Assembly (NCBI GenBank): GCA_021234155.1 | Contig: JAJEKV010000016.1 | Coordinates: forward strand, 18,470,698 to 18,534,697 | Source of the DNA: Isoetes taiwanensis | Taxonomy: Eukaryota; Streptophyta; Lycopodiopsida; Isoetales; Isoetaceae | DNA length: 64,000 nucleotides | Reading direction: 5' to 3' | Part shown: one piece after another, positions 5,146 through 42,750 of the stretch | Numbering within the stretch: the stretch's first letter is position 1 | How the letters are laid out: each line of letters begins with the position of its first letter | Position numbers and translations under genes: made by a program | The notes under the pieces: model-generated | What the model saw: only the letters and a program-made list of their open reading frames with translations | What the model was told of the DNA's origin: nothing | Databases searched by the model: none

Positions 5146-6103
5146 ACCCAATGAAAAAGTGCAAAGAGACTTCTGTTATCCGAAAGTTACCCCTCCCTTC
5201 CCACCCCCCAAAAAAAGGGTTTCTGAGGGAACAATCATGGCAGTAATAAGAGTGTTGTAGCTTGTTAGATTGTAGTTATCATCTCCACAGCTTTTGCTTG
5301 CAGATGTGGCGTATTCGCCTTAATCTCTTTTTTAAAGCACTCCCTGTCGTGTGAAAGTCTGTCTATTCTAGTTGACATCGTATCTAGATTAGCCAAAATG
5401 TCAGCGATGGCCAAACCTATCATGTTGTCCTTCAAACTGCAGTAGTTGAAGATGATTATCTAATTATTGCATGCATGTGTTCGTGCCAGAAATGCTTTGC
5501 TTTTTGTGACCAGTTGCTTTTTGTGACCTGCAAGCTTAACTTTCTTTGCCCCAACAGTTGCCTAAATCTATTTCCAATTTCCTTCTGATGTCTGATTTGT
5601 TGTTGCTTGTGAACAACTTCTAGTTAGATTGTGTAGCCAAGTGTGTTGCGCATTCCTTTGCCCTTGCTTTCTTTTTCAAGGTATTGTCCACCAAGGCATG
5701 ACTACTAGCTGAAGCATAGGCAAGACAATCGGTTAAATTTGCTAAGAGCATTTCTATGAGGTAATGGAACTTGGAAATCATGAAGGTCTCACTTTGAAAA
5801 TTGTGCTATGGTTTACCATCCACATTTCAACTTATTCTGATACAATTTAAGTAAACTAACAAGTTAAGCCTAGCTAGTGATTTTGCTTCAATATATATGA
5901 TTAAAACAAGTATAAAAACATCAATCTTTATATTACAAAATTACCCCATAAGTATGTAGGTCATGTATCAAATCCTAGATTAGACGGGCGAGATTGGCCA
6001 TCCAATTAGACAGCCATGATTGTTCGTGGTTGGTCATTATCAGATGGCTTATATTGGCCTTCAAGATCGATGGCCAAGAATCAAGAACAATTCAAGGGAA
6101 AGG

Positions 6104-31138: not shown

Positions 31139-32212
31139 ATGGCAGCATTATTCCAAGCATCCAGGATTCTGGATATTCCAGAGCCAGGAGTCAGCTGAAA
31201 GAAGGCTGAATCAGGTAGGCAATGCTTGAGAGTGGCACTGCCAACAGGGTGAGAACATTGCAGCCAATATCTTATTAGCTTGAGTGCCGGGGATGGTCTG
31301 TTGAGATATAGAGCTCTCCACACCATCTTGGCAGCTAAGGCTTGAGCTTGTACAAATAAGTCCTTACAGCCGAGACCTCCTTCTTTCCTTGGTTTGACCA
31401 GGTCTGACCATGCTACTTTATGTGACCCTTGCCATATGAATTTCCTAATAATCCTTTCAATTTGGTTGTAAGAGGCCTTATCTCCTACCAGAACTGAGGA
31501 GAAGAAGACATGTGTACTACAAATCACAGAATTAGCAATTTCAACTCTCCCAGCCAGAGATAGGGTGGATGGATACCTGTGAAGTTTTTCTTTAATTCTG
31601 GAAACTATAGGTTCCCACAGTCCATGTAAAGAGTGATTAAGAGCCAGAGGAATCCCCAAGATCTTTGTAGCTGCCCTATTATCCAGAACCTTAATGCCAT
31701 GGATAGTTGTCTCTTTGGTGTCAAAAATTATTGCACTTTTGGCTTTGTTTAGCATAACCCCTGCTGCAGCCCCAAATTTTTCTATTGCCTCCAGGAAGTT
31801 AGGTAAACTGTTATCTCCAAATTTAAGGAACACAAATGTGTCATCAGCATATTGCATTATTGTGAAGTCTTCATCCCCTTGTGGCATTTTAAGGCTATTA
31901 ATTAGTTTCCTTTCCTGTAAACTAACTGCCATCCTAGTGACCATCTCAGCAATAATCAAGAATAGATATGGGGCCAGTGGGCATCCTTGCCTCACTCCTC
32001 TTTGGCATTGAAAAGGCTTTGATGGAGTACCATTAATAATTATGGCAGATGAGGCATTAGCATTAAAGCTCCAAATTTTGTTGTATATGGTTTCTGGAAA
32101 CCCAAGGTGTGCCATGGCCTTTTATAAAAACCTTCAATCAATAGTGTCATATGCTCTCTGAAAGTCAAGCTTTAGGAGCATGCATTGTTGGCCTGACATT
32201 TTGTTCCAATGC
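31139..32212 (-). pseudogene. LINE reverse transcriptase, palm and thumb
   Basis: Uninterrupted frame of more than 340 codons: AHLGFPETIYNKIW, NGTPSKPFQCQRGVRQGCPL, APYLFLIIAEM, QYADDTFVFLKFGD (catalytic YADD), LNKAKSAIIF, LSLAGRVEIANSVI and VKPRKEGGLGCKDL. These are RT motifs 4-7 and the conserved post-RT region of L1-type plant LINEs. It begins at the edge of the TIR transposon; the preceding RT residues are found at 41876 onward. Confidence 0.85.
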
Positions 32213-32441
32213 GGGTAAAAGCACGGTGTGGTGTATCAAAAACGTGCATTTTGACGCCACATTTTGGCACCACCTTTGTGGTAGAATCGGGTGGTGCATA
32301 CCGAAGCGGAGATTGCGGGAGTGCGAATTAATGAGCGTCGGTTATTTTGAATTTTATGCCACGTCATTGTCCACCTTTTTGAATTAAGAAAGAATCACCT
32401 CTTCCTCTGTTTTTTTGCCGCTTCTTGCCGATTGAACCCTA

Positions 32442-33010
32442 ATGGAGTCGGAATTGAAGGCCACTGGTTACATGATGAAATCTCTCCTCAAACAAGAGAT
32501 TGTGCCCCACGAAGATCTAAAGAAGCTTTGGGGTGACAGAGTTCCAAATAAATCTGGCTACAGTATTTTCCCCGAATGTTTTGTTCAAACCGAAAAATTA
32601 AGGCATATGTTTTTTCTTGTACAGTTGAAGAATCGAGGCAATGAACAATACAAAGAGTTCATGCAAATTTACAAAAGAATTACAGGGGAAGCCACATACA
32701 TGGGGTGGAATGGCTCTGGAACTTTGGCGGTGGCTTATTATCCGCATATAAAGGGGAGGTCAAGATTGGAAGAGCTTCTCGGATTATTATAAAACTCCCG
32801 ATGAGAAAGCCGAGGCCAGTTCTTCTAGACCCAAGAGAAAGCATAGGCAAATCCAACCTGACGAGGAGGAAAATAGTAAAAGTGACAGGGATGATGAAGA
32901 TGATAGGGAAATAACCAAATCAGGTTCCTCTAGACCACACATTCAATCCGAACTTACAATCAAAGCAAAAAGCGAGCAATGTTACGAGACCAAAACATGC
33001 CATTGCGGTA
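32442..33010 (+). pseudogene. Transposon gene 1, 5' part (unknown protein)
   Basis: First ATG after the left terminal repeat, in the context CCCTAATGG. It encodes about 110 codons (MESELKATGYMMKSLLKQEI, later FPECFVQTEKLRHMFFLVQL and YMGWNGSG), then a frameshift near 32745. The alternate frame continues with a basic then acidic low-complexity part (KAEASSSRPKRKHRQ; PDEEENSKSDRDDEDDREIT) and KTCHCG. I recognise no domain. Position and strand suggest it is the start of the gene that carries the Ulp1-like protease further downstream. Confidence 0.4.
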
Positions 33011-33201
33011 TGTTCAATTATTAGTTGTCTTACAACAAAAAAAATCTCAAGCTTGATCTAGATTGTTTCTATCAACACAGAAAAGGTAACATCAAATCCA
33101 CTTCAAGAATCAGGTATGTCTACTACCATTTTGCATCATGTTGGCTGTATTGTCATGTTGTGTCTCTATGATGCGCAATGGATGCCAGAACGATAGATGA
33201 G

Positions 33202-33836
33202 GTATGTGTGGTGGTGGTGAGTTGTTGGCATCCACCATGTCCCACACCACACCCCACGATCTCCCACCACTACACTCTACCATCTCCCACACTCCCACAC
33301 CACACACCACCACCACACTCCACCACCACCACCACACTCCTCCACCACCACCACACTCCACCACCACCACACCACACCACCACGGACTCCACCATGTCCC
33401 ACACCACACTCCACCACCACCACACTCCACCACCACCACACACCCCACCACCACCACCACCACCCTCACCACCACCACACACACCACCACCACCACCACA
33501 CCCCACACTCCACCACCACCACACCACACCCCCACCACCACCCCCCATCACCACACTCCACCATGTCCCACACCACACTCCACCACCACCACACACCCCA
33601 CCACCACCACCACCACACCTCACCACCACACCACCACCACCACCACCACCACAGACACCACCACCACCTGTGTGGTGTGTACTGTGCAGCGTATGTTGTG
33701 TGGTGTGTGGTATGTGGTGGTGTGTAGAGACTACCTTGTGTTGTGTGGTGTGTGATTGTGGTTTTCCATCGTCACGGCTTTACTATGTTAGGAGGCCGAC
33801 ATATCACGTAGTGTTTTGTTTTGCGCACTATGGCAG
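33202..33836 (+). repeat. CCA-rich tract, probably within an intron
   Basis: From about 33231 to 33668 the plus strand is almost purely CCA/CAC/ACC, with interspersed CACTCC and TCCCACACC units, followed by a TGTGTGG-rich part. It is bounded by GATGAG/GTATGT at 33202 (donor-like) and TATGGCAG/ACTT ending at 33836 (acceptor-like), so an intron is the simplest reading. Long His/Thr/Pro-type ORFs across it are composition artefacts. Confidence 0.6.
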
Positions 33837-35280
33837 ACTTGTGAAGGAATGGTTGGCTGCAACATCAGCTAGGTTTGACAGATGCAAGCAACGATTGCAA
33901 GCAAACGAGGATAGGAAAAATGATATCAAAAGAAAGATTGAGTTGATGGAGCATAAAGCATCAGAAATTAGAGCTGATTTGCACAGATGGCAATCAATCA
34001 TGACAAGAAATCCGGAAGCGGCGAGAGGGTGTTCGGGTTGTGTTTAACTAAAGGATGAAGAGCTAAATGGTACAGTGTTGCCTGGGCTGAAACGATTAAA
34101 TAAGGAATTAACAGAAACTGAAATTGAGCTAAAGGCATGTGAAGACTTACTGCTGGATCTGCTACCTCGAATGCAAAGATTTGAGATTTTTTCTGAGCGT
34201 AGTGGTCATGACACTCCTTTAGATCCTGCACTTCCAATGCTTCCCGAAAGGTAAGAAGAGGGTGATGAAGATTGTCCATTTTGTGGGCGTTATCCGAAAT
34301 GGGAGGGTAAAATGTTGCCGATTGTGATAGCGAGAATCACGTCCACCACCATATCACATTCCATGTCTATCACACCATTTGAGGTAAATATTATCATCTC
34401 TAACCCTCGTCTAAAGACTCTATTGATTTTGAATTTGTTTTGCAGACACTCTAGAACCTGCTGCAGCCCCAGTTGTGGCCACATTATGACTGAGACATGG
34501 CTTTTGGCTTTTGGTGTTCGAGTGGTACCACAAGAACCAATAGACACAAGTAAGTCCAAAGAGGGGTGAAAGCAAGGTTTGGGAAGTCTCGATGCTTGTA
34601 CTCAGGTCTCTTTCATCCTAGCTTAGTCTCTTCCATCCTGGCTGGCTTAGTCTCTTTTGCTTGTCTCTTTTGCAAACAATATAGATTCGCTGCAAACAAG
34701 TGCCTTAACTAATGTTTACTGATGTTGTCACAGGTCTACTGACTTAGTGTTTGCAGAATTGCAGAAATTTGAGACCAAGGATATCCAACAGTTATCCACG
34801 CCTCGATCAGTTATGAGATCGCAAGATACCTCCTATTGTACCTAGAATTCACCCCATTTGATACTCAAAGTCAATCCCAAATCGGCCGACGGCATGGAGA
34901 CTCCAAAACGAAATTTGGATAGTCAATGAATGCGATCATTATCAAGTAAGTACCGATGCCACATACATGATTTATTTTTTTGTATTTTTCTGTGGTCTTC
35001 CTCATTTCAATTATGTTGCAGAGATAAATGCTACTGCAACTGGAAGCCATGACGAAGAGATTCCTAGTGCATCTGATTTAGGGGGGAAAATTAATTCCCT
35101 TGAGATTCATTCTGTACGGGGTCCTTCACCAGAAAAAAGTTTTGGTGCTGAATATGAGCCAAATGCGGATGCAGGTGATGAAGTTGACAAAGAAACCCCG
35201 GATCCTGGACAAGATCTGAGACTGCTCCAACGAGTCCAATATAACCTCAACCAACAAAACCAAGAGGTTAACTGAAATTC
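33837..35280 (+). pseudogene. Transposon gene 1, middle part with coiled coil and Cys pair
   Basis: After the acceptor the plus-strand frame reads KEWLAATSARFDRCKQRLQA, NEDRKNDIKRKIELMEHKAS and EIRADLHRWQS, a clear heptad-type coiled coil. Shifted frames follow with LTETEIELKACEDLLLDLLP and GDEDCPFCGRYPKWEGK, a CxxC-type segment. A polar segment at 35025-35275 (GSHDEEIPSASDLGGKIN) lies in another frame. Stops and frameshifts show decay. Function unknown. Confidence 0.35.
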
Positions 35281-35440
35281 TCCTTGTTCGGATTTTAATG
35301 GGGTTTTAGGCAAGTTTTATGACTTGAAAGAGAGGATCCTCGCATCGGGTAGAGCAGTGACCATCCGTAAATTGAACCATCAAAAGTTCGCGGTTTCTAG
35401 GCCCGGATTTCAGAGTTCTTAGAATGGTGTTTTTCAAAAT

Positions 35441-36830
35441 TTGAGATTGCATTGTGGTCCAAAGATGGCTAAGAGTAATGTTGACTTGTTGACGAAAAGT
35501 TCTTTCAGAGAATATAAGGGCGATTTTCTTTTTATTTGGAATCGGGATGACTACACCAACACAAAATTAAAAGTGGTTAATAAGCCAATTTTCCTTAAGG
35601 ATCTGTCCAAAGTGTACCAGAAATTTTGGAGATACCGGTGACAAACACATTGTTGATAGATGACAAAGATATAAAGGGTTACGCCAACCAATAGAACACA
35701 ATGATATGTCCAAATAGTTTTGCTCCCGGCAGGTTGGATTCCAATTTCCTTTTGGAGCAACTCAAACCATGGTCGGAGGGACTTAAGGCTGCGAAAAAGT
35801 GTGCCAACTTATGTGAAGGAACATCAAATGTGGAACATGTGGGATTAAGAGTCGGCGCAAGAACGCATGAAAATGCTCGACAAGTATTTTTATAAATGAA
35901 TCTTGTAAAACTCTTTGAAAGTCAATATAAGTAAAAAGAATTTCTATGATATGTGTTGTACTTTTTCAATTTAAAATATTTGAATGGATTGTGAGCAAAT
36001 GTTCTCGTGTGTTTAGAACTAGAGATGATAGAGCTTCGGCGGTCCCGACTATCTAAAGCCAAATACACATCCGGAAGTGGTGCCGAGTGGAACCTGAAAG
36101 CGTAAGTGATTAACTCCACCGACATCAAAATTTTGGAAGCCGATACGCAGTGATGGTTCAATGATCAATTGATCCTCCTCTTCTCAAGGTGATACTTTCA
36201 TCGATTTGTGATCATCGATTGTGCGGATGATATGCATATGTTTGCGGATACATGGAATACTACTTGATTCTCCAAGGAATGAGCCATCCCTTTCATTTCT
36301 TTGACCCTCTTTTCACTTCGACATTGTCCAAGGACACAAATAGTTACAAAACAATAAGGAAACATGTGAATCTGGATAAGTGCGGTACATGTTTTTGCCT
36401 CGCTTGTGATGGACATCAACGGACCTTTTTCGATTGTAAACCACGCGTGTCTCCGCCTGAGAGATATAAACCGGGGATATATCACTTTGATAGCTTCGGG
36501 CTTGCGCGGGCGAAGGCATATATTGAGAGGTTAGTGCTTGCTCATTGCATTTTTCTTTGTTGTGGCACAATGACAACAAACTTTGAGTGCGGGTTCACGG
36601 AATTGCTTGGACCGCGATAATTTTCAGCTTTACAACCTCGGATGTTGTGAAAATTTCCAGAACGCCTCTTCAAACCGATGGTCATTCATGTGGCCCTGCC
36701 GTATGTTCGTTTATGCACAAATTTGTGAGGGGGTACTTAAAAGGAGTGAATATATTGTTGCCTGATCTAGTAAGTCAACTTAAATGCAAAAGAGACAAAC
36801 CAAGCTCACATTATTGACAAAAACGTAGTT
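35441..36830 (+). pseudogene. Ulp1/C48-type cysteine protease relic
   Basis: Ulp1 proteases cleave SUMO-type conjugates, and C48 domains are known cargo of several plant DNA transposons. Seen here: a region resembling the N-terminal part (WNLKA-stop-VINSTDIKIL near 36090), the YHFDSFGLARAKAYIE segment at about 36478-36525 (the aspartate and DS-G context of the family), and PLQTDGHSCGPAVCSFMHKF at about 36667-36726. The last is the strongest: Gln and catalytic Cys in QxDxHSCGPAVC. The catalytic His was not confidently placed. At least three frames are needed, so it is a pseudogene. Confidence 0.65.
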
Positions 36831-37300
36831 AATCTGCAGTCGTGGACATTTCGGACCGGGATCTAGTTGATGTTAGAGTGTTCATGCTTGAAGTTTTAAG
36901 ATTAGAAGCAACAAAAGCTTGGGCCCGAGAGGAACATATGTATTGGGAAGTATGTAGGTGCATGAGTCACCTCGTTTTAAATAATCGTATATCTTTCTTA
37001 TGTACATAATTGTTATTGTAACCTCGATTCATTTCAATGAAAATTCATATTCAATTCATCTCACAAACAAAGGAATCAAGTGTTTCAGAAGAATTCAAAT
37101 CTTCAAAAGAAATCAAAACAAACTCATTTTCACAGCTGAAGCACAAAACTTCACATGAGTTAAAAAAACTTCTGAAATGGTTTTACATTTCATCATCATC
37201 GAAAAGAACTTGGGGTAAATTTCGTAAAATTTTCTCCTCATCTAAAGGATCCGACCTATATACAGTCTGTTTTTGGCGTTTAGTTGGTGGCATGTGAAGT
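36831..37300. other. Region between the convergent transposon genes
   Basis: Probable 3' regions of both genes. Plus-strand ORF 37037-37297 (KEFKSS..., Ser/Lys-rich) is on the antisense strand of gene 2 and shows no motif. Confidence 0.3.
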
Positions 37301-39150
37301 CCCGATTGCCTGGTCGTGTTGTGAATACTATGCCTAAAGCGTCCCTTCTTTGCAAAGATCATAGGCGACGGTTGATCTTAAGCCCTTCTTGTAATACATA
37401 CCTTCTATGACACTATCACCGGGTGAGGTACCATGTTCCATTGAGTTGGAAGTCTTTCTCCACTATCCATTTTGGTTTTGTGCACATCGAATCCAAAATT
37501 GAGAACCCTCATCATTCCCTTTTTGAACAACAACGACAAAATTATCACCAACTCTAAGTGCCTCTGCTAACATCGTGGGATTGGAGGAGAACAAGGACCT
37601 GCTTTGGATTTACGGTCCTCAATGTCGGCATGCACATTGGAGGATGGTACAATAACTTGAAGTTTCCAATCATCAACGTAGTGCTTGTTCACACAAGCGT
37701 CCCACATGCCATCCAAGCGGTAGGCTGCGAAGCATGAAAGTTCCCTCGTGCAAGCTGCAATGGAGATTCGAGGATTGAATGCATGTACACAATGGATCTG
37801 CCTAGTGTCCAAAATCCTTTCTACGCACCCCATGCTTTCTTTCTATCTATATCCTCCACCTTGACTTCCCAAAAGAACCTTTTTATATTCTTCCTCTTCT
37901 TGGTTTCGGATGTGTTCATCCACTTTCGGATGTTCCACAAGTAAACATCTCTTTGGCAACTTCTACCACTTCATGAGCATTACCCAATTTTATGTTTCTT
38001 TGTATTTTTTAATTGCGATTGTCTTAACCATCTCTTCAACTTCGGCGGCTTTGCCATCGTGTTCACCTTTCCGTGGTTAGAACCAAAAAATTCCACATCA
38101 TATAGACATCGATTAATGGTTTGTGTACCTAGCCACAAAGTAAAATGGTCTAGAAGCCTTGAATTGAGATCTTTGCACCATCCGAAAACACATAATGTCT
38201 CTTTGGAACCCTTCCTTTACGCTCCGGATATTTGTGGTGCTTCATGAAGCGGTGTTGCCGCGAACAAAGTATCGTGTTCCCTATCATCGATACATAGTAA
38301 TGTGTTTCCTTGATAATCTCATGCCAGCCCAGAGTCATCTTGGTATGTTATTTGAACCAAAATGGTAATCTGGTTATTGACCCGTAAGATCGATTGCACC
38401 TCCTCTTGTTCCTTGAATGTATAGTTCTCTGCAAAATCCACTGCCCGAGACATGCATCTGTTTGGAGATTCTCGGAAGCTCCTTAAAGCTGTTTTGCCCC
38501 GCCATTGGTACCTGAAATTATGCGATGGAAAGATTTTTTAGACGCTCTTTTCGGTTTATCCGGAAGCTCCTTGGGTTCTGTCTCATTGTCTTGATGAGTG
38601 GGTCTCCTACGGTAACTTCGAGGCGTTGTCTTTTTCATAGTCAATGTACTCCCATTTCACTTTCCTCTTGCCACTTCCTTCCATGGGGCCAGTGCGAAAC
38701 TTCTTGATTCCACCACGACTCACAATTTCCAAGGATGCGCCTTCTTGTGAAACTCATCTAATTCACTCTTTGGACACAATATAGATCTCCACAAGCTTCA
38801 CGTACTTTGCAATTTTATGCTTGGTGTGTGCCTGCATTGACCAAGTTCATGTGATCTACAAACATCGCGAGGTGCAAGTGCAATTCTTCGGATGTTTGGT
38901 TCTCATCCCATTGAGTCCATCCACTAGCATTTGCATCCTCCGCGTCTTTGAATGCAACAGCAACTATTGAAGTCCTTCAATTTCACAACAAACCAGGGTT
39001 TTAGCTTCTCAAAAGCTCGAAGATCGAATCTTAATTTCACGGATGTTGGTCCGAAACCTCTTGAACAATAGCATCCGCATGAAATGAACACTAAAACTGT
39101 TAGGATGTGTATACCACACCAAACCATGCACCATACCATGCCCCACACTC
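37300..39150 (-). pseudogene. Transposon gene 2: candidate transposase with DFAENY and HGK motifs
   Basis: Minus-strand readings in order: KLKPWFVVKLKDFNSCCC (about 38953-39010), RAVDFAENYTFKEQEEVQSI (DFAENY at 38421-38438), NNQITILVQITYQDDSG, KRHYVFSDGA (about 38174-38205), QFKASRPFYFVARYTN one frame over, WNFFGSNHGK then GEHDG (38053-38076), and KKYKET. I recall this motif series from uncharacterised proteins scattered in plants and animals that look transposon-borne. Conserved Asp/Glu in DFAENY...E, SDG and EHDG suggest a DDE-like nuclease, but this is inference. Single-base frameshifts and stops divide it into at least five frames, so it is inactive. Confidence 0.55.
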
Positions 39151-39179
39151 ATCATATTTCACGAGCGAGCACCTTAATA

Positions 39180-39935
39180 GTGCTGTGGTGCATTACCACA
39201 CCACACCTCACCCCACCACACACCATACCATTCACCACACACCATGTGGTGGTGGAGTGTGGTGGTGAGGAGGTGGTGGTGGTGGATTGTGGTGGTGGGG
39301 GGTGGTGGTGGAGTGGGTGGTGGATTGTGGTGGTGGGGGGTGGTGGAGTGGTGTGTGGTGGTGGTGGGATGTGGTGGTGGGGGTGGTGGTGGATTGTGGT
39401 GGAGTGGTGTGTGGTGTGGTGGTGGGGCGTGGTGGTGGGGGGGTGGTGGTGGAGGAGGTGTGTGGTGTGGTGGTGGGGGGGGTGGTGGTGGTGGTGTGTG
39501 TAGTGGTGTGTGGTGCTATGATGTGGTGTGGTGGAGTGTGGTGGTGGGGTGTGGTGGTGGGGTGGTGTGTGGTGGAGTGTGGGTGGTGGTGGAGTGTGGT
39601 GGGGGGGTGTAGTGGTGGTGGTGTGGTGTGGTGTTTGTGGATTGTGGTGTGATGTGGTGGTGGTGGAGTGTGGTGGTGGTGGTGGAGGGGTGTGGCGTGG
39701 GATGTGGTGGGATGTGTGTGCATGTGGTGGTAATGTGGTGGTCGCAAAGATGTGGTGGTAGTCTATGGTGGTGGGATAGATGGGGTGTGGTGGGGTGAGG
39801 GGGGAGATTCTCCAGATCATACATTAACATGCACACACCCACATGACACCATGGACATAACGCAACCCACACCACACCACACCACAAACCACACCACACC
39901 ACACCACACCACACCACACCACACATCACATCACA
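39180..39935 (-). repeat. GTG-rich tract (CCA-rich on the sense strand of gene 2)
   Basis: From about 39238 to 39790 the plus strand is almost purely GTGGTGG/GGGGTGG repeats; 39866-39935 then switches to ACACC repeats on the plus strand. On the minus (coding) strand of gene 2 the main tract is CCA-rich, like the tract in gene 1. The switch creates an inverted pair (GGTGT versus ACACC) that could fold. Long ORFs here are composition artefacts. Confidence 0.7.
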
Positions 39936-40139
39936 TCACTTTTATCCTATTTCGTCTGACATAAAAAATCTGCCTAGCCTGCTCTCATAAACACTTCTGA
40001 AATTCGTACACCTTAATAATAATTACATTCCTCTTCTAATCATTAGAAAAGGATCTGGGTCCTAAATCCTGTTCCTACGTCTAATTTTTGGCGTTTCATT
40101 CCCAATTCGCGCCAAATCGAAGAAGTTCATTCCGGCAAC

Positions 40140-40550
40140 ATGGTAGGAGGGATGTTCAGAGATCACTACGGCTATTGTAGGGTGAGCGAGGAGGGCATTC
40201 AGCACATGTTAAACAGGGCTCGTGATAAATCTCTGAAGGTGGATATGCCTAAATCCACCTTCTTTGCTGATTTCGAATCCAACCTAAAGGCATACAACAA
40301 ACTGGATGTTGGGCCTTCAATGGCTATGCTTGGAGTCAGATTGACAGGAAGAGAGCTCTTAGACAGAGTTCATGAGCTTATGTTACATGCTGCTGCAAGG
40401 GTAGCTGGTATATTTGTTCTCTGTCACTTGTCCGCTCTGATTCTGCAACAGCGGACTTTACTGGCAGAATTGCGTACTTATCACCAGGGGATGCAGGAAG
40501 CACTGGCAAACCTCATCCTGTTAAATTCAAAGATGACTGCAGAAAGCTAA
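40140..40550 (+). CDS. Intact 136-codon ORF inside the transposon, unknown
   Basis: Begins MVGGMFRDHYGYCRVSEEGI with an ATG in context CAACATGG and ends at a TAA followed by an AT-rich tail. It has balanced composition and a C-terminal hydrophobic/helical part (RVAGIFVLCHLSALILQQRT). I recognise no family. It is on the strand opposite to gene 2, in what may be gene 2's intron, so it could be an independent small gene, captured sequence, or chance. It is the only uninterrupted ORF of good composition in the transposon. Confidence 0.4.
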   Translation: MVGGMFRDHYGYCRVSEEGIQHMLNRARDKSLKVDMPKSTFFADFESNLKAYNKLDVGPSMAMLGVRLTGRELLDRVHELMLHAAARVAGIFVLCHLSALILQQRTLLAELRTYHQGMQEALANLILLNSKMTAES

Positions 40551-40829
40551 ATCATGCATGTAAATTTAGTTCTCGGGTACAGAGCTTTCAATGGAAAGCC
40601 AAATTTTGTAAAGCCAAATTTTGTAAGATCCTTTTTTTAATATATCATACTTTCCAACAGTTGTCTTTATTCAACAAAAAATTGTATCTCAGGATCAGTT
40701 AGTTATAGCTACACACAATTCACATGCTGCATACAGTACAACAATCACTGTACAACACAATAACCACCACATGCACCACCATACTAAGCACCATAACTAA
40801 GAAAACATGATTAATGAAATAAACTAACT

Positions 40830-41606
40830 TTTGTGATTCCTCCGGATAGTGGGCACATGTTCTTCTCTTACATTTCTCTCCAATCTTCTAGTTCTAACAT
40901 CCTTTGTGTTAGGAGACACTCACGGTGTTCTCAATCCAAAATTTTTGAATCTTTTCTATATGTTCATCCGAAATTGCATCGAATCTTTTTTAGCCCTCTT
41001 GTAAGAAACCCATTTCCCACCATTGTAATCGATCTCTTCCCTCTTTTTTCTTTTGCTTTTTGCAGGTTTCTTGGGTGAACACCTAATACCTTTCAAGATC
41101 TCGTTTTGCTGATTTTGTCACTTGTTTCAGAATCTGCACGCGTGTAGTCTACGTATTACATTGCAAGGCAGCTATTCTTGGCTGCTAGGCGGATCATTCT
41201 TCTTCGGTAGAGAGTTTGGCGATCCGCATGGAGTCCCGTGAGGCTCCTTATAACGATGCTCTTGGCTTCCAAATCCTTTAATTCTTCACCTATGAATTTT
41301 TTCCAATGTTTTATCCCTCAAAAATCAAGTAAAATTTCTTTCTTCGTGCCATCCTCCATTCTTTTGGTCTGTTTTATGGAAAGACGCGTTAGCAAACTAA
41401 GGACAATACGGCGTTCTTCGCTTGCACTTCTTGATGAACCGGATCCTTCTACGCCAATTCTACAGCTCCAATTTTTTCTTCTCTTCTTCTTTTCCTCTGG
41501 CGTCTTTTCTTCAACATTTCTTGTTCCTTGGTTCTTCTTCGTTTTCTCCTCATCCGAAATGCCCGGTTTGTATCTGATTACCTCATTAACATCCATATCC
41601 ACAATG
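40830..41606 (-). pseudogene. Transposon gene 2, 5' part (charged N-terminus)
   Basis: From the probable ATG at 41606 the minus strand reads MDVNEVIRYKPGISDEEKTK, EKTPEEKKKRRKNWSCRI and later RMEDGTKKEILLDF, then broken frames with NTKDVRTRRLERNVREEHVP. It is a highly basic/acidic start with a nuclear-localisation-like KKKRRK. It lies about 265 bases inside the right terminal repeat and is colinear with the DFAENY...HGK part downstream, which suggests one multi-exon gene. The start is chosen because upstream in-frame sequence contains GC-rich subterminal repeat. Confidence 0.35.
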
Positions 41607-41875
41607 GATTGGAGCTCGCAGCAGGGAGGGAGCCAAAGAACAGGACGTAGGCAAAGAACAGGAAGGGGCCAAAGAATAGGAATTTGAATTTGAATTTTAG
41701 TTTTTGAAATTGGAATTTCCCCCACAGCTGAGCGGGACTCTATTCTTAAATACCGGCAGCTGAGCGGTGCCATAATTATACTTTCATACCACAAAAGTGG
41801 TGGATGCAACGCCACATTTTGGGGAGACAGGGGGGACAGCCGAATTGGAACACCACAGCGTGCTTTTACCCATGC

Positions 41876-42750
41876 AAGCCTTCAGTTGCTCCTATATAAT
41901 TGTCCAATATATTTCTTTGAGGCAAGAAAGCAGATTGACAGGGACTGATCAGCTTATATAGAACACATTTCAGCCTGTTAGCCATCATTTTGGCTAGGAT
42001 CTTATAGCTTGTATTGGTCAGTGTGATGGGTCTCCAGTCTCCTAGAACCTGAGGAGTGTCCACCTTGGGGATCATGGTGATATGCCCAGCATTGATTGCA
42101 GGATGTAACTTTGAGGCACACCATGCCCCTTGAAAGAAGGTAATCAAATCCTCTTTCATTATATCCCAGAACTCCAAATAGAATTCTGGTTGCAGACCAT
42201 CTGGACCAGGGCTCTTTCCTTTGGCCATGGACTTCAGAGTTTCCAAAATCTCTCTCTCTTTTGGGACAGACAATAATTCTTCCTCACTGATCTCTCCAGA
42301 GCTTTGTGGAATATCCTGGAAGAATTCTGTCAGGGTCTGCTCATCTGCTTGTTTATTCTCAAAGAGCTTGGAGTATTCCCTTTGAAAATAGTCTTCTATC
42401 TCTTTTTGTTCCTCTATGTTTTTCTGACCATCACTGATTCTTGTGATCCCATTATTCACCAGTCTATTTTTAGCTGTTCTAAAAAAGAAAGCCGAGCTGC
42501 CATTATCCATATTGTTAAGATATTTTGTTCTGCTTCTCACAGACTTTGCTTCTTTCTCCTCAATGATTTTAACCTTTTTTTCCAAATCTTCCTCTTCATC
42601 CTGTAAACTTTTATTATTCTTGTCATTGAATAACTTATTCCTGATTTGTTTTATAGCCCCATAAATAGACTGTTTTTCCTTCCTCTTCTCCAAGTTCCAG
42701 CTTTTCCCCCATTGTTTAATCCAATTCTTTATGTTTTGACCCTTTGACAA
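41876..42750 (-). pseudogene. LINE reverse transcriptase, N-terminal part
   Basis: Open frame of about 290 codons: NRLVNNGITRISDGQKNIEE, KGKSPGPDGLQPEFYLEFWD, HITMIPKVDTPQVLGDWRPI, TLTNTSYKILAKMMANRLK and SPCQSAFLPQRNILDNYIGA. These are RT motifs 0-2 of L1-type LINEs. The frame continues without loss into 32208 once the nested transposon is removed. A one-base frameshift near 42740 separates it from the endonuclease frame. Confidence 0.85.

Follow-up and report, generated by a model that had tools for sequence, protein, structure and literature searches.

A two-gene terminal-inverted-repeat transposon with a 4-bp target-site duplication and a putative DDD transposase in Isoetes taiwanensis

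Introduction

What kind of transposon combines short, near-identical ends and a 4-bp duplication with two convergent genes, and are those genes as decayed as they appear? The question is raised by a 9659-bp element in a 64,000-nucleotide stretch of the Isoetes taiwanensis genome (the window; G000:C974:18470698-18534697), which belongs to a plant assembly of 1.66 Gb in 1110 contigs. A preliminary description, made from the letters of the window, had proposed a transposon with terminal inverted repeats (TIRs) that carries two decayed genes, a Ulp1-type protease and a possible transposase. Here we delimit the element, describe its two genes and conclude that it is likely to be a cut-and-paste TIR DNA transposon of the plant, with frame breaks that probably stem in good part from assembly errors at CAG/CTG sites.

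Results

Boundaries and insertion site

The element (Table 1) begins with GGGTAAAAGCACG directly after a left flank ending in CCAATGC, and at its right edge CGTGCTTTTACCC is followed by the flanking ATGCAAGCC, such that one copy of ATGC, the target-site duplication (TSD), lies on either side. The TIRs comprise 13 perfect bases, with 21/22 identities over the first 22, and are short because the two ends diverge thereafter; within the window, GGGTAAAAGCACG occurs without mismatch at the two ends of the element only. Joining the flanks minus one ATGC yields a 337-amino-acid open segment of a long interspersed nuclear element (LINE) reverse transcriptase on the minus strand, which continues for 26 codons beyond the junction, and the next LINE open reading frame (ORF; 347 amino acids) shares this frame and is separated from the segment by two in-frame stops. 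The LINE frame is therefore rejoined on removal of the element, although the LINE itself is broken.

The joined 177-base site gave 564 first-look candidates in the genome, of which 40 matches were scored. One of these is the window; the other 39, at other places in the genome, cross the junction without interruption, and the best of them matches at 98% over positions 1-177. Sister LINE copies thus show the unoccupied site directly. A second empty site is provided by a relative on contig C1033, an element of 9771 bp (positions 1682-11452 of L038+L043) with ends GGGTTAAAGC and GGGTCAAAGC and the TSD AAAA, where removal of the element and one AAAA rejoins a retrotransposon gag frame; this relative has the same layout and a transposase that is ~55% identical. 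A two-gene TIR element with these boundaries is confirmed, and the preliminary description was right on the rejoined LINE frame, the terminal repeats and the 4-bp duplication. As to hosts, the C1033 relative lies inside the gag frame of a long terminal repeat retrotransposon, and a relative on contig C928 adjoins a retrotransposon pol frame.

Copies and target-site duplications

As queries against the host genome, the first 201 bases of the element returned 755 first-look candidates and the last 201 bases 509; the 40 matches scored for each are 99-100% identical over 201 bp at the left end and 98-100% identical at the right end. From the left-end matches, the first 20 listed after the window itself were sampled with 10 kb each, the right end being present within 10 kb in 6/20, and additional end pairs were taken from 11 short flanks. 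Among the resulting 14 paired copies, window included, 13 have an exact 4-bp TSD, 11 of them found by script and two by eye (TACA and AGTT, where the script had mis-anchored on a changed terminus). The sole non-exact pair, on C1046, has ATCA and GTCA, alike at 3/4 bases. No fixed motif is apparent among the 14 TSDs, and duplications of 3 bp or 8-11 bp, which the preliminary description had named as evidence against its reading when proposing this tally, are absent from all 14. Three pairs have their ends ~20, ~23 and ~40 kb apart, presumably due to nested insertions. The near-identity of the ends suggests that the nearly identical copies arose in a recent burst.

A putative DDD transposase

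Both gene regions are recovered when relatives are compared with the window by tblastn (Table 1), in agreement with the two convergent genes initially described. Protein searches of the genome with gene 2 returned 7550 first-look candidates (113 scored) and, for a second query, 11217 (108 scored), numbers that are not copy counts, and 11 long open frames were taken from several sub-families. The open exon 2 frames of L038 and L039 reach 622 and 616 codons. In L038, exon 1 starts at 2178 and exon 2 ends at 5345, and the exon borders, CACAG/GTAATT and TGCAG/TCAG, are standard splice borders, giving a predicted protein of ~857 amino acids (237 + 620) from two exons.

In an alignment of 11 gene 2 sequences (A3), Asp215, Asp300 and Asp341 are invariant in 11/11 rows with the spacing D-x84-D-x40-D, accompanied by invariant Cys and His residues in the first part and by the blocks DFAEN, SDD..HDTLF, DG.ASQFK and GK.EHDGK; the serine that precedes the second catalytic aspartate is altered in 3/11 rows. 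This motif pattern may be widespread in eukaryotes. The ratio of nonsynonymous to synonymous substitution rates (dN/dS) is 0.08-0.11 in 6/6 pairs among L038-L041, 0.16 for L033-L032, 0.19 for L033-L034, 0.44 for L036-L037 and 0.49 for L032-L034, with dS saturated for more distant pairs. As judged from these ratios, gene 2 is under purifying selection.

Gene 2 has no credible match in Pfam, NCBIfam or PDB, only weak ones below cut-off, and in these three collections it does not fall inside a named superfamily, an outcome that the preliminary description had taken as a possible refutation. The profile of A3 gave four weak matches in PDB (best E 0.07), and a search there by sequence gave none. 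In Pfam, translations of the element in all six frames, with stops written as X, matched nothing, and the first hand-stitched gene pieces nothing credible. Patterns of element peptides had no match in viral contigs; outside the genome, pattern searches matched 10 and 193 stretches, none of them a relative by tblastn. In genome contigs of other sources, 82 stretches matched one pattern, with no relatives among them, and another pattern matched nothing, as was the case for plasmids and phages.

From its position, conservation and three aspartates, gene 2 is likely to encode the transposase, as had been surmised. Its failure to match known families would also be accommodated if gene 2 were cargo and the transposase were gene 1 or located elsewhere; against this stand the three invariant aspartates and purifying selection of gene 2, and the RING-like, NIF and Ulp1 domains of gene 1, and we regard it as very unlikely. 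Conservation is indecisive here, gene 2 being 52-55% identical between families for open copies, and the broken window copy being 28% identical to L038 for gene 2 and 24-26% for pieces of gene 1.

The partner gene

Gene 1 had been described as a Ulp1-type protease. On a protein stitched from copies, Ulp1 (Peptidase_C48) indeed scores 26.7 bits against a cut-off of 20.7, two pieces alone remaining below it (12.1 and 17.2), but a coiled coil, a RING-like finger and a NIF-type phosphatase domain had been missed. The NIF domain (PF03031) reaches 44.9 bits against a cut-off of 21.8, on the stitched protein only; the open NIF-like block of the C928 relative, which matches the window by tblastn, matches no Pfam family when searched alone. 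Several RING models match the same place in two relatives, all below cut-off (best zf-rbx1, 21.8 versus 31 bits), as are matches to BRE1, and we use the term RING-like because the exon ends inside the finger and the scores are below cut-off. The coiled coil and finger of the C1033 and C928 relatives are 66% identical, each being ~25% identical to the window piece. By sequence similarity, the coiled-coil/RING-like part is common across families, the NIF domain is seen in two families and Ulp1 in just one, that of the window.

Two large CCACCA/GGTGGT arrays lie in mirror orientation, one in each gene, and array-like matches occur in other copies. The 136-amino-acid ORF inside the inferred gene 2 intron has no Pfam match, and the sister copy L035 holds a similar ORF at 190-927. 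Separately, the LEAFY domain (PF01698) has four matches in the genome, with an exon at L046 (G000:C907:50542760), and none in 14 control genomes (0/14); LEAFY is a plant gene.

Table 1. Features of the element and its flanks in window coordinates
Feature	Position	Strand	Basis or remark
Whole element	32213..41871	.	TSD, TIR, rejoined LINE frame, empty sites elsewhere
TSD ATGC, left copy	32209..32212	.	Flank comparison
TSD ATGC, right copy	41872..41875	.	Flank comparison
TIR left, GGGTAAAAGCACG	32213..32225	+	13 perfect bases
TIR right	41859..41871	-	Inverted match to left end
Gene 1 first open block, 116 amino acids	32442..32792	+	Close to left end; homologue in C1033 relative, tblastn 32451-32759, E 4e-6
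CCACCA-rich array	33231..33668	.	TRF; inside gene 1
Gene 1 coiled coil, then CPFC RING-like finger	33832..34340	+	tblastn with C928 relative, 33832-34332, E 1.5e-10
Gene 1 NIF (CTD-phosphatase-like) domain	35285..35805	+	PF03031 1.3e-11, stitched protein; C928 homologue, tblastn 35426-35784, E 3e-20
Ulp1 (C48) protease region, limits approximate	36150..36910	+	PF02902 6e-6, stitched protein; last part of gene 1 or separate gene
Gene 2 exon 2: cysteine-rich region, DDD core (DFAENY, FSDGA, HGKGEHDG), C-terminal part	37186..39080	-	tblastn 39080-37186 with L033 (E 2e-79) and L034 (E 4e-48)
Gene 2 intron (inferred)	39081..40830	-	GT/AG borders in L038 relative
GGTGGT-rich array, inverted relative to CCACCA array	39245..39716	.	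TRF; inside inferred gene 2 intron
Open ORF, 136 amino acids	40140..40550	+	Inside inferred gene 2 intron, opposite strand
Gene 2 exon 1, N-terminal part, upper limit approximate	40831..41600	-	tblastn 41482-40831 with L038 exon 1, E 3.5e-15; frames

Apparent decay of the two genes

Frame breaks are abundant, as the preliminary description had noted, with 8 to 35 frame-breaking indels in exon 2 of each of 13 copies. In these copies, the centres of CAG/CTG triplets are altered by mismatch or indel in 38.5% of cases, compared with 2-5% from 6 bases away outward, whereas four copies with intact ORFs have no CAG/CTG enrichment (x1.0). Only CCG/CGG of four classes of control triplets is in excess, and more weakly (x1.8 in the 13 copies, x2.6 in the four intact ones). 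Moreover, the altered fraction of CAG/CTG sites depends on the distance from the termini, rising from 0.1, 0.0 and 0.2 in the first 300 bp (one site each) to 0.46-0.51 when measured from the left terminus (20 copies), and from 0.05, 0.14 and 0.26 to 0.32-0.43 from the right terminus (seven copies); the background mismatch follows the same course, low in the outermost ~200 bp at both ends and high in the interior.

A similar excess is present in nine copies of the unrelated flanking LINE (window 42001-42700 and L047-L054), where indels reach 3.2% at CAG/CTG versus 0.24% far away. The altered sites are of a non-deamination type in 48/77 cases in the LINE and 125/150 in the element. Variants more than 50 bp apart are only weakly linked, with four-gamete conflict at 0.71-0.80 compared with 0.80 after shuffling and 0.37 within 50 bp. 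The accessible text of PMC7501810 describes nanopore errors caused by methylation, and small indels that persist in unpolished assemblies. We suggest that consensus errors of long reads would arise at presumably CHG-methylated (CAG/CTG) sites, and that short-read polishing would correct them only near unique flanking DNA. Many frame breaks of the window copy are thus probably long-read assembly errors that remained at CHG-type sites, and the decay reported for both genes would in large part be an artefact, as indicated by the clustering at CAG/CTG and the low rates near the flanks.

Several points weigh against our account of a cut-and-paste transposon with assembly-derived frame breaks. The profile from the left terminus is biased, the copies having been chosen by their left ends; the right-end profile is free of this bias, except for the exact 12-base anchor that located those ends. 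The majority sequence of the 13 exon 2 copies, which at 1359 bases has the same length as the intact relative, is not open, with seven stops in frame 0 and a longest run of 176 codons, and therefore requires either systematic errors or real shared decay. Of 144 frame-breaking events across 16 aligned sequences, 61 are common to at least two, with one of them an alignment-end effect, and inherited decay would produce such sharing too. Of 284 frame-breaking indels, 138 fall no more than 4 bases from CAG/CTG, a zone that covers 23% of positions, and about half lie elsewhere. As for the genes, the transposase call draws on position, conservation and the three aspartates, the Ulp1 and NIF calls depend on stitched proteins, and Ulp1 was found neither in the C928 or C1033 relatives by tblastn nor on the minus strand of L044 by Pfam.

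If the frame breaks were real, the broken elements would have been moved in trans by intact relatives, with CAG/CTG as true mutational hotspots in methylated DNA. Open relatives do exist, and a stop at codon 166 shared by 10/13 copies, shared frameshifts and the closed majority sequence fit such a history. Changes that are mostly of a non-deamination type, rich in indels and fewer within ~200 bp of unique flanks do not, nor do the same CAG/CTG excess in the unrelated LINE and the weak association of variants beyond 50 bp, and we consider real decay rather unlikely. Functional constraint on the ends, with a body that diverges while mobile, and recombination among copies were each dropped, the differences being tied to CAG/CTG and to the distance from unique flanks. 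In this assembly, near-identical and probably methylated repeats hold genes that appear disrupted at CAG/CTG sites, most likely through a technical cause, and calling young transposons 'decayed' may therefore be mistaken. The concentration of mismatches and indels at CAG/CTG is a probable class of assembly error that could affect other repeats.

Discussion

Proposed mechanism

For the likely cut-and-paste mechanism, we envisage that gene 2, starting near the right end, would yield a transposase of ~860 amino acids from two exons, with a basic N-terminal part, a cysteine-rich, presumably zinc-binding region and a catalytic core with the three invariant aspartates. After binding to the GGGTAAAAGCACG ends, this protein would cut the element out and insert it where the target strands are cleaved 4 bp apart, a stagger proposed because the 4-bp duplication is constant. 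Gene 1, starting near the left end, would encode an accessory protein with coiled coil, RING-like finger, NIF-type phosphatase domain and, in the window family, a Ulp1-type protease, the most likely role of which, by inference from these domains, would be to alter how the transposase or chromatin is modified with SUMO, ubiquitin or phosphate. The element would represent a young, apparently recently mobile family, in which a transposase missed by general profile libraries stands beside a phosphatase, RING-like and SUMO-protease-type partner, and it may help to show how plant transposons could counter or exploit host modification systems.

Comparison with known superfamilies

Ginger1 and Ginger2 share a 4-bp (4-6) TSD with the element and differ in their TG..CA termini, those of the element being GGG..CCC (GGGTAAAAGCACG), and in their integrase-type transposase, an integrase domain being absent from the element by Pfam; the Ginger paper reportedly mentions a Ulp1 protease. 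A Ulp1 gene stands beside the transposase in some MULE and CACTA elements, and the TSD of piggyBac is TTAA. TSDs are given as 8 bp for hAT, 7-12 bp for plant Mutator, 3 bp for CACTA and TA for Tc1-mariner in the accessible parts of PMC10741241 and PMC12730594. The constant 4-bp TSD does not fit these four or piggyBac, and agrees with the preliminary description as to hAT, Mutator, CACTA and mariner. Ulp1-carrying MULE and CACTA elements differ from the present one in their plant TSDs of 7-12 or 3 bp (PMC10741241, same part) and in a transposase domain of a kind that Pfam did not find here.

KDZ-type elements, which can carry Ulp1 and had been suggested at the outset, resemble the element in their large size and accessory genes. 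Their TSDs, 8 bp in Zisupton and Dileera and 7 bp in Kyakuja according to the accessible text of PMC12730594, contradict the 4 bp seen here and make this assignment extremely improbable. The TSD ranges quoted in the available portion of PMC10045372 for PHIS (PIF/Harbinger-ISL2EU; 0-4 bp), MuDR/IS256 (4-10 bp) and IS481EU (~4/15/25 bp) are wide and include 4 bp, such that the argument against these groups is the absence of a credible Pfam match of gene 2.

The element might alternatively constitute a superfamily separate from Sola, defined by a DDD transposase outside the searched families and a conserved coiled-coil/RING-like/NIF-phosphatase partner (here with Ulp1) that would modify the transposase or chromatin, and it may be young or still active; we hold this to be a tentative, somewhat doubtful option. 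Our literature search, for which subscription papers were mostly beyond reach, found no title that describes the element, a weak sign that it is unpublished.

Set beside the element by described features, Sola appears to be the nearest known kind, and we lean slightly towards placing the element in this superfamily (Sola1, 2 or 3) as a member whose accessory gene would be lineage-specific, an assignment that concerns filing only and is compatible with the mechanism above. The preliminary description, correct that the common plant superfamilies do not fit, had overlooked Sola. As far as the accessible text of PMC10741241 goes, Sola elements have a 4-bp TSD, a DDD transposase, a size of 2-9 kb, sometimes >15 kb, and variable termini, and have been reported in a moss. 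The corresponding part of PMC3627910 gives 888 amino acids for a Sola2 transposase, close to the ~857 of L038, with 4-bp TSDs and AWWT as the target of slime-mould Sola2; that of PMC12477816 describes a 21.5-kb Sola1 with an accessory gene in a brown alga. The 4-bp TSD (13/14 exact and one at 3/4, with AAAA in C1033) is in keeping with Sola as described. In contrast, AWWT fits 1/14 left-hand TSDs (ATAT, L006), the RING-NIF-Ulp1 partner is unmentioned for Sola in these texts, and the likeness is one of descriptions. The element shares with Sola1-3 a 4-bp TSD, TIRs, considerable length and the capacity to carry other genes, and its putative transposase is similar in size to the DDD transposase reported for Sola.

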